A stretch of 64,000 bases of DNA. Origin: Streptococcus gwangjuense (lineage in GTDB: Bacteria; Bacillota; Bacilli; Lactobacillales; Streptococcaceae). The stretch spans positions 620,001 to 684,000 of the forward strand of contig NZ_CP032621.1 of the NCBI RefSeq assembly GCF_003627155.1, in the 5' to 3' direction. The position numbers and the translations under genes are program-made. The notes beneath the pieces were generated by a model. That model saw nothing but the letters and a program-made list of their open reading frames with translations. It had not been told where the DNA came from and ran no database searches. Position 1 is the stretch's first letter, and each line of letters begins with the position of its first letter. Positions 18,665-41,502 of the stretch are shown one piece after another.

Positions 18665-18822
18665 GTTGAGAAAAGCAGAAGTGAGAGCTTCTCGCCTTGT
18701 GACATTAAGTTGCCTGGCCCTACGGATGAAAAGTTTCTAAGAAACGCTATCATAACGTGCGGGCTTGTATATTTACGAGTCCGCTATTGTTTTTCTCTAA
18801 TAAAACAAAAGAGGTGAAAACC
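18665..18822 (+). promoter_or_regulatory. infC-rpmI-rplT leader with attenuator (L20-type autoregulation)
   Basis: The untranslated leader contains an intrinsic terminator at 18759-18795: GCGGGCTTGTA pairs with TACGAGTCCGC (11 bp, two G-U) and is followed by ATTGTTTTT, about 30 bases before the start codon. Upstream hairpin segments (GAGAAAAGCAGAAGTGAGAGCTTCTC region) could form alternative folds. In Firmicutes L20 represses its own operon through such a leader. The family is known; the exact L20 site here is inferred. Confidence 0.7.
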
Positions 18823-40315: not shown

Positions 40316-40486
40316 CCTAGCTATGAAATATAAAAATAAAAAAAGAAAGGTAGAGCGTGTGTTCTGATTTGAACACGAGCGGAAAACTTTTCTAAAAATC
40401 AGAAAGTAAGGGTAGTTCGGGTTTGAATTGAAGCCGGTCTAATCTTCTCAATATCATCAAAATTAAGAAAGAAAGGAATTGACCCC

Positions 40487-40575
40487 ACCCTAAAAGCAGT
40501 GGGAAAAAGATAGTTGGTCTAGCGAGCATCGCTCACTGCTCCCAACTCCTATTTCCCCTTTGCTTTTTGACGGGT
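40487..40575 (+). promoter_or_regulatory. hairpin element, unit 2
   Basis: Five helices stack in order: ACCC/GGGT, AAAAGCA/TGCTTTT, GGGAAA/TTTCCC, then an internal loop AAGAT opposite CCTA, AGTTGG/CCAACT, a second internal loop opening TCT, and AGCGA/TCGCT with a 3-base loop. The same architecture with other base pairs occurs at 40647. Confidence 0.7.
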
Positions 40576-40646
40576 TTGGTATCTTTCTGATTATAAATTT
40601 TAGAATAAAGAAAGGATGGGTTAACTGTATTCATTGAACTGAATAC

Positions 40647-40733
40647 GGGCGGAGAACTGTGTAAAAAAGATAAACTGTCTAGCATCTGCGATGCGTCGTC
40701 AGTTTCCTATTTTTACTTTGTTCTCTGTCGCCC
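40647..40733 (+). promoter_or_regulatory. hairpin element, unit 3, directly before deoD
   Basis: Helices in order: GGGCG/CGCCC, AGAAC/GTTCT, GTAAAAA/TTTTTAC, internal loop AGAT opposite CCTA, AAACTG/CAGTTT, a second internal loop opening TCTA, and GCATC/GATGC with a 3-base loop. It ends 14 bases before the deoD ATG. Confidence 0.7.
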
Positions 40734-40747
40734 TTTATATCTTAACT

Positions 40748-41458
40748 ATGTCTATCCATATTGCTGCTCAGCAGGGTGAAATTGCTGATAAAATTCTTCT
40801 TCCTGGAGATCCTCTTCGTGCTAAGTTTATTGCGGAGAATTTCCTTGAAGATGCTGTTTGTTTTAACGAAGTACGTAACATGTTTGGTTACACTGGTACT
40901 TACAAGGGCCACCGTGTATCAGTCATGGGAACTGGGATGGGGATGCCATCTATTTCGATTTATGCGCGTGAGTTGATTGTTGACTACGGTGTGAAAAAAT
41001 TGATCCGTGTGGGAACAGCAGGTTCATTGAATGAAGATGTTCACGTCCGTGAATTAGTTTTGGCGCAGGCAGCTGCAACCAACTCTAACATCATCCGCAA
41101 TGACTGGCCACAGTACGATTTCCCACAAATTGCTAGCTTTGATTTGCTGGACAAGGCCTACCATATCGCTAAAGAACTTGGTATGACAACCCACGTTGGG
41201 AACGTTTTGTCATCTGATGTCTTTTACTCAAACTACTTTGAAAAGAATATCGAGCTTGGTAAATGGGGAGTCAAGGCTGTGGAAATGGAAGCAGCAGCCC
41301 TTTACTATCTGGCGGCCCAACACCATGTTGACGCGCTTGCCATCATGACTATTTCTGATAGTTTGGTCAATCCAGATGAAGATACGACTGCAGAAGAACG
41401 CCAAAATACCTTCACTGATATGATGAAGGTTGGATTGGAAACCTTAATTGCAGAGTAA
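40748..41458 (+). CDS. deoD: purine nucleoside phosphorylase (DeoD, hexameric class)
   Basis: Phosphorolysis of purine ribo- and deoxyribonucleosides, including adenosine. From the ATG at 40748 it has 236 residues beginning [22 protein letters not shown], the family start. [27 protein letters not shown] and [13 protein letters not shown] are signature blocks, and [17 protein letters not shown] carries the catalytic Asp. The frame continues 57 bases upstream to another ATG inside the hairpin element, which is unlikely to be used. No Shine-Dalgarno sequence precedes the chosen ATG. A terminator separates it from pavA. Confidence 0.93.
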
Positions 41459-41468
41459 AATGTAAAAG

Positions 41469-41502
41469 AAAATCCTGATTTCAAGTGAAATCAGGATTTT
41501 TT
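41469..41502. terminator. bidirectional terminator between deoD and pavA
   Basis: AAAATCCTGATTTC and GAAATCAGGATTTT are exactly complementary (14 bp) with loop AAGT. The pavA stop codon lies within the stem. Confidence 0.9.

Follow-up and report, generated by a model that had tools for sequence, protein, structure and literature searches.

What are the folded units that stand in front of the purine-nucleoside phosphorylase gene deoD in Streptococcus gwangjuense, and what does their position mean for the gene behind them? In the window, i.e. the whole 64,000-nucleotide stretch of DNA analysed here, deoD occupies 40748..41458 (+); its product matches TIGR00107 above the cut-off (8.7e-87), and 80/80 orthologues examined start with MSIH at the position of the 40748 ATG. 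A sequence-only reading had described two upstream arms, at 40487-40575 and 40647-40733, which share a fold while most of the paired bases differ, and had offered a cis-regulatory RNA, a mobile structured element or a processed small RNA as options.

The unit array upstream of deoD

Both arms are present and fold as described: the predicted fold reaches -33.9 kcal/mol for 40487-40585 (z -3.5; 2/200 shuffles as good) and -43.5 kcal/mol for 40609-40740 (z -5.0; 0/200 shuffles as good). The elements themselves are real, but their bounds had been drawn too narrowly, because the basal helix (GAACA/TGTATC type) also covaries; as defined by the family model, they extend 11 nt further 5' and 14 nt further 3'. 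The full structured element that is flush with the deoD start codon, type C, spans 40636..40747 (+). It scores 107.8 bits (E 4.7e-25) in R1, a covariance model built from 35 copies, and is 91.6% identical over 143 nt to locus L082. The full element preceding it, type A (40476..40589, +), has the same predicted arm, scores 96.5 bits (E 5.5e-22) and is 97.9% identical over 145 nt to an S. mitis unit. Each is accompanied by an extended Shine-Dalgarno sequence (SD), AGAAAGGA, at 40470..40477 (+) for unit A and at 40609..40616 (+) for unit C, the latter being the only candidate deoD SD seen within 140 nt of the ATG. A 5' hairpin, H (CTGTATTCA/TGAATACGG; 40625..40648, +), is indicated by the predicted fold and by triple covariation, and shares a strand with the basal helix of the type C element.

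What had been taken for a third, degenerate unit at 40343-40440 turned out to be the 5' parts of two truncated units. One, of type B, retains only about 58 nt (40333..40389, +; 96.6% over 58 nt to L081, the S. mitis 321A unit that is flush with deoD); the other, of type D, retains only about 47 nt (40393..40441, +; 89.8% over 49 nt to an S. parasanguinis unit, L146). Neither scores in R1 at E <= 1. The opening motif AAGAAAGG noted before is real, with AGAAAGG at 40344-40350 in the type B unit, while the fourth, truncated unit of type D carries AGAAAGT instead (40401-40407). With truncated units in lower case, the order upstream of deoD in the window is b-d-A-C. An in-frame ATG inside the type C element (40691-40747, +) lengthens the longest deoD frame by 19 codons; since the orthologues start at 40748, gene callers may mis-start deoD at this internal ATG. 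Between deoD and the convergent gene lies a hairpin with A and T runs (41469-41502), which is probably a bidirectional terminator and weakly resembles the SpF36 sRNA on both strands (22.9 bits; family cut-off 48). Elsewhere in the window, a ribosomal protein L20 leader (RF00558) is found at 18667-18798 (+; 71.7 bits, above the gathering score).

The array is shared by related streptococci. Among mitis-group deoD loci, a unit is flush with the ATG and preceded by GAAAGG in 80/80 cases (the top 80 out of 463 matches and so close relatives). These flush units fall into four types, represented by 37, 22, 13 and 8 loci, each type occurring in several species. Up to seven units precede the ATG, b-d-A-C-B being the longest order seen more than twice. 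The last unit before deoD is full length in 81/81 loci, compared to 50/147 of the upstream units, the other 97 being truncated (a BLAST match of <= 101 nt, by which a divergent unit could be miscounted). To judge from these sequences, and with species that are not independent, the array fits an exchange of units combined with selection on the last one, and cis-regulation of deoD by the element is plausible.

A dispersed repeat family with a conserved fold

The type C element is found by BLAST at seven places in its own genome and has matches in 20/41 genomes, all of its own genus. A search with R1 detected 15 copies in the S. gwangjuense genome and matches in 125/127 Streptococcus genomes (at most 29 candidates scored per genome), and eight further genomes searched singly gave 18-68 matches each. 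In a family-wide draw at E <= 0.01, 14/14 Streptococcus genomes and 18/45 other genomes had a match. Of 24 loci fetched from other genera, 19 were inspected, and 18 of these share the arm and its AGAT/CCTA (or TAGAT/CCTAA, TCTA) loop; the 19th is on a short contig, where the extracted slice missed the element. The element family is a Streptococcaceae repeat of ~110 nt whose ends resemble AATTGAAC...GTATCTTA and which carries a five-helix arm. In the other genus g23, a GGAG-type SD lies just 3' of the element in 10/11 loci shown (by eye), so that there the element precedes the whole ribosome binding site.

The arm had been proposed to be under selection as RNA structure, and the covariation bears this out. 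Helix pairing amounts to 97.0% of cells among 150 aligned matches (142 distinct), and both sides change in 23/25 pairs of the alignment of the 142 distinct rows. The covariation score of 0.586 compares to 0.166 in shuffles, with 0/500 shuffles as high; the alignment was fitted to the structure, which biases it in the structure's favour. As a control, sliding the partner by 1-3 columns lowers pairing from 97% to 40-53%. Covariation stems from all four modelled helices, the apical hairpin having been left out of the model. G-T mispairs outnumber A-C mispairs 53 to 22, but only 22 to 17 without one pair, and the scan's own score favoured G-T; the mispairs thus indicate no clear preference for either strand. 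The fold of the element is under selection.

The internal loop, AGAT opposite CCTA, had also been called conserved, and it is kept in nearly all family copies: among the distinct cores of the three position classes described below, AGAT occurs in 92/93, 104/109 and 36/39 and CCTA in 87/93, 101/109 and 38/39. Watson-Crick pairing is 94% in copies flush with a start codon, 95% in unplaced copies and 97% in copies antisense to a gene and flush with its stop codon, with the loops kept in all. As antisense and unplaced copies are equally well paired, translation is not the sole selection on the fold; it is also maintained by something that acts whatever the orientation, the simplest candidate being movement of the element itself.

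In agreement with the statement that the fold matches no known riboswitch class, 40333-40747 gave no Rfam match at E <= 5, nor at the gathering score. A description of the family or of an SD-repeat-AUG class was not found in the open-licence PMC literature, the only literature covered, nor was the family described in the available portions of PMC6212727, PMC8632094 and PMC4448216. Like BOX, RUP and SPRITE of S. pneumoniae, the element is a small, interspersed, strongly folded and presumably mobile streptococcal repeat. According to excerpts of PMC3049150, BOX is modular, RUP is ~107 bp long and AT-rich (27.5% GC), SPRITE consists of an 18-bp duplex with a U-rich tail (28% GC), and all three are almost absent from S. 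sanguinis. Identity with them was set aside on these published descriptions and on the presence of the element in S. sanguinis, where deoD carries it (L135, L152). Neither an intrinsic nor a SPRITE-like terminator fits, as the arm is followed by TATCTTAATT and the ATG or stop codon, with no U-tract after the stem. Enterobacterial ERIC/RU and other intergenic transcribed repeats are imperfect palindromes of ~100-130 bp that sit inside operons in either orientation; they share size, palindromic form and variable orientation with the element and differ in their hosts, and we know of no SD-element-AUG class among ERIC/RU. A survey of non-coding RNAs in 50 genomes lists 250 mobile or repeat candidates (MRSC) that, like the element, are multi-copy structured motifs with covariation and inconsistent orientation, Streptococcus being among the hosts; the one described in the accessible text, MRSC-65-2 with UYCCGG repeats, differs from the streptococcal element, which may be among the undescribed candidates (PMC11109978).

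The option of a mobile structured element has gained ground: the family is dispersed, both orientations relative to the neighbouring genes occur, and near-identical units stand at unrelated sites, with identity stopping at the element's ends. These ends, AATTGA/TTAATT, are weakly inverted (by eye). From its distribution we infer that the element is a small MITE-like repeat that has spread by moving. Neither a transposase nor a target duplication nor a clean empty site was identified, and the element-free rpsO 3' flanks and carB sites hold no readable target-site duplication. In five of the rpsO flanks that lack the element (L406, L407, L416, L420, L426) there are long hairpins of another sort, with CTTCG and CCTAG motifs, which may belong to further repeat families. 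Recent transposition in genome G023 was considered and rejected: its equal-scoring copies sit in identical repeats of 1.5-2.2 kb that look like rRNA operons, and these copies are therefore not independent insertions. In one streptococcus, a copy lies in identical repeats, in an apparent 16S-23S spacer (L373, L374, L375), the adjoining sequence being what we take to be the 5' end of 23S rRNA. Between rpsN and rpsH, a pair of oppositely oriented elements meets head to head (L004, 560-795), and in S. gwangjuense elements separate grpE, dnaK and dnaJ, the one before dnaK being antisense and the one before dnaJ sense (L068, L069).

Position between Shine-Dalgarno sequence and start codon

Besides the variable four-type array at deoD, a second feature had not been foreseen: AAGAAAGG is an SD, and the element lies between this SD and the start codon. 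The motif AGAAAGG is an extended SD of the form (A)GAAAGG(A). The positions were classified on 442 distinct full-length copies obtained from 590 nhmmer rows after removal of copies that left model positions 8-106 uncovered, lay near locus ends or had identical flanks. A copy was called start-flush when its 3' end lay <= 12 nt from a sense ATG opening at least 100 codons. By this definition 189 copies are start-flush, among them several chance frames (five lying at 0 or 12 nt, three in fusA-rpsG antisense, two others); 68 abut a stop codon in antisense, 176 do neither, 5 abut GTG or TTG and 4 are unplaceable. This sample is enriched for loci fetched by gene (80 of deoD, 30 each of dnaJ and carB). 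The 190 copies not fetched by gene comprise 45 start-flush, 39 stop-flush, 104 in neither position and 2 at GTG/TTG. The loci are the best-scoring of each search, by which divergent copies are under-sampled, and the species are not independent. In an earlier count of 295 copies, the element's other end was almost never near a start or stop codon.

An SD lies <= 60 nt 5' of the element in 181/189 start-flush copies, compared to 0/68 stop-flush and 29/176 unplaced copies, and in 38/45 of the start-flush copies not fetched by gene. Between element and ATG, an SD-like motif occurs in 0/189 start-flush copies. NCBIfam named 19/20 scanned start-flush genes, mostly on 250-residue pieces and hence partly below the curated cut-offs. 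Those starting with ATG are deoD, dnaJ, carA, carB, prfA, prmA (two), proS, alaS, thrS, hisS, purB, uvrA, parC, era and sufB, together with a lipoyl-domain dihydrolipoyl dehydrogenase and an alcohol dehydrogenase-like gene; mutM and cshA start with TTG and also have a flush element. At hisS, the SD pattern used gave no clear SD. By eye, the element lies between AGAAAGG and ATG in 29/30 dnaJ loci (the best 30 of 59) and between SD and ATG in 25/30 carB loci (the best 30 of 48 genomes with carB). Other carB loci show an ordinary close SD without the element (L306, L313), an SD with only the tail TTTGTATCATCATT (L311), or an unrelated hairpin at the element's place (L316, L319). In the carA-carB gap of a further locus (L007, 1305-1508), a small hairpin is followed by GAATAGAAAGG twice in tandem, the second being the element's SD.

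These positions could also be read as those of a purely selfish MITE-like repeat, with a fold that helps it to move as DNA or RNA and with sites beside start and stop codons that reflect an insertion preference tolerated by the genes. The two orientations, the near-identical units whose identity ends with the element, the fold and loops conserved equally in sense, antisense and unplaced copies, the up to 68 copies per genome and the copies in the apparent 16S-23S spacer would all be expected of such a repeat, for which, on the other hand, a transposase, target duplication and clean empty site are the missing marks. Against it, the deoD-adjacent unit is never truncated, whereas upstream units often are, and SDs are kept 5' of start-flush copies only. 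Both facts point to host selection at these sites, and we regard a purely selfish repeat as unlikely.

Possible initiation across the folded arm

In the start-flush cases, the insert between SD and AUG measures 108-151 nt (lengths printed). A single closed domain is predicted for 90% of 167 distinct cases, compared to 34% of 6680 shuffles; ranked by energy among shuffles of its own sequence, the insert averages 0.0013. The unpaired length left between SD and AUG has a median of 14 nt (quartiles 10-15), which is not shorter than in shuffles (13). The optimum of SD-AUG spacing is 5-9 nt, and the longer median counts against reading these sites as split ribosome binding sites. If the folded segment is widened to take in SD and AUG, the predicted minimum-energy structure leaves an open path between the two in 10% of cases versus 2% of shuffles; the path is seldom open because the first bases of the SD often pair with the UCUU tail. 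Mean unpaired probability is 0.62 for the SD (0.43 in shuffles) and 0.51 for the AUG (0.45). By these predictions, bridging of the arm by the ribosome is plausible, and sequestration of the SD by the fold is conceivable.

A precedent exists in phage T4, where RNA structure between SD and AUG of genes 25 and 38 cuts the spacing from 27 to 11 nt and from 22 to 5 nt and helps initiation (from the available part of PMC3014915). The likeness lies in the folded RNA between a distant SD and the AUG. In T4, single genes with 22-27 nt are concerned and the effect on translation has been demonstrated, whereas the streptococcal element is a repeat family with 108-151 nt at more than a dozen genes and is known here from its sequence and predicted fold. 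We consider it probable that a MITE-like structured repeat forms the folded insert of split ribosome binding sites comparable to those of T4 25 and 38; both initiation across the arm and mobility are parts of this proposal that we infer. An element of this class sits in sense exactly between the start codon, which lacks any other SD, and the extended SD, (A)GAAAGG(A), and is predicted to close into one domain, with a median of 14 nt left unpaired on the way from SD to AUG. The 30S subunit could then bind SD and AUG with the arm looped out, as in a split, 'accommodated' ribosome binding site. The deoD site holds a row of seemingly exchangeable units, the last of them invariably full length, and a protein or ligand might use the AGAU/CCUA loop or the competing basal helices to tune translation.

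Two accounts of the start sites do without such bridging. The 3' end of the element could be a promoter that yields leaderless mRNAs beginning at the ATG, given that TATCAT/TATCTT resembles a -10 hexamer (TATC[TA]T). A -10 hexamer lies 6-7 nt from the transcription start, and the gap between hexamer and ATG is 4-5 nt in 147/189 copies, too short for a start at the A. An SD 5' of the element would moreover be useless, yet it is kept in 181/189. Even with a precedent in the 78 genes reported as leaderless in S. agalactiae (excerpt of PMC4448216), we hold such a promoter to be very improbable. Alternatively, the SD might serve a small upstream reading frame, with the main gene reached by reinitiation. 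Start codons do occur 3-13 nt after the SD in 34/84 deoD, 21/35 dnaJ and 15/24 carB copies, but 19/25 gene groups have none, and the frames listed are short and stop well before the AUG, which leaves this account scarcely credible.

The split-site reading leaves room for regulation. Where a start-flush copy has a 5' extension, two alternative partners are available to the 5' strand of its basal helix, one at the 3' end of the element and one further upstream, and the three strands covary: GAACA/TGTTC/TGTATC, GAATA/TATTC/TATATC and GAACC/GGTTC/GGTATC occur in 45, 19 and 7 of 158 such copies. An exact upstream complement is present in 76/158 extended and 7/33 unextended start-flush copies, compared to 7/167 unplaced and 1/63 stop-flush copies; among distinct copies the count is 55/113 (shuffled mean 28, maximum 40). 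These sequences suggest that the pair of basal helices may act as a functional switch. A trans-acting protein or ligand that binds the AGAU/CCUA loop, or shifts hairpin H against the basal helix, and thereby controls the translation of a housekeeping regulon would agree with this three-way covariation, with its bias towards extended start-flush copies, and with the retention of AGAT and CCTA in all three classes and in other genera. Copies that run antisense to the adjacent gene, however, keep the loop equally well, the genes concerned form a mixed set (tRNA ligases, a chaperone, DNA repair, purine and pyrimidine genes), and we know of no protein that binds the arm. Such a regulator is a doubtful candidate.

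More speculatively, a mobile structured RNA may have been adopted repeatedly across the genus as an exchangeable initiation module, with the competing basal helices and the AGAU/CCUA loop as a common translational switch and with the four-type deoD array allowing strains to swap the module next to the ATG; we put this forward tentatively. The exceptions to a near SD-AUG spacing found in the literature, as far as the available excerpts go, are single phage genes (T4). If the split-site reading is true, ribosomes throughout the genus would bridge 110-150 nt of folded RNA when they start on genes for tRNA ligases, chaperone, release factor and nucleotide metabolism, and models of start-site choice as well as gene callers that expect a near SD would need amending. 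The family would then offer a naturally occurring collection of folded inserts with which to study how 30S subunits cope with structure, and would be an example of a repeat that may have been domesticated at ribosome binding sites.
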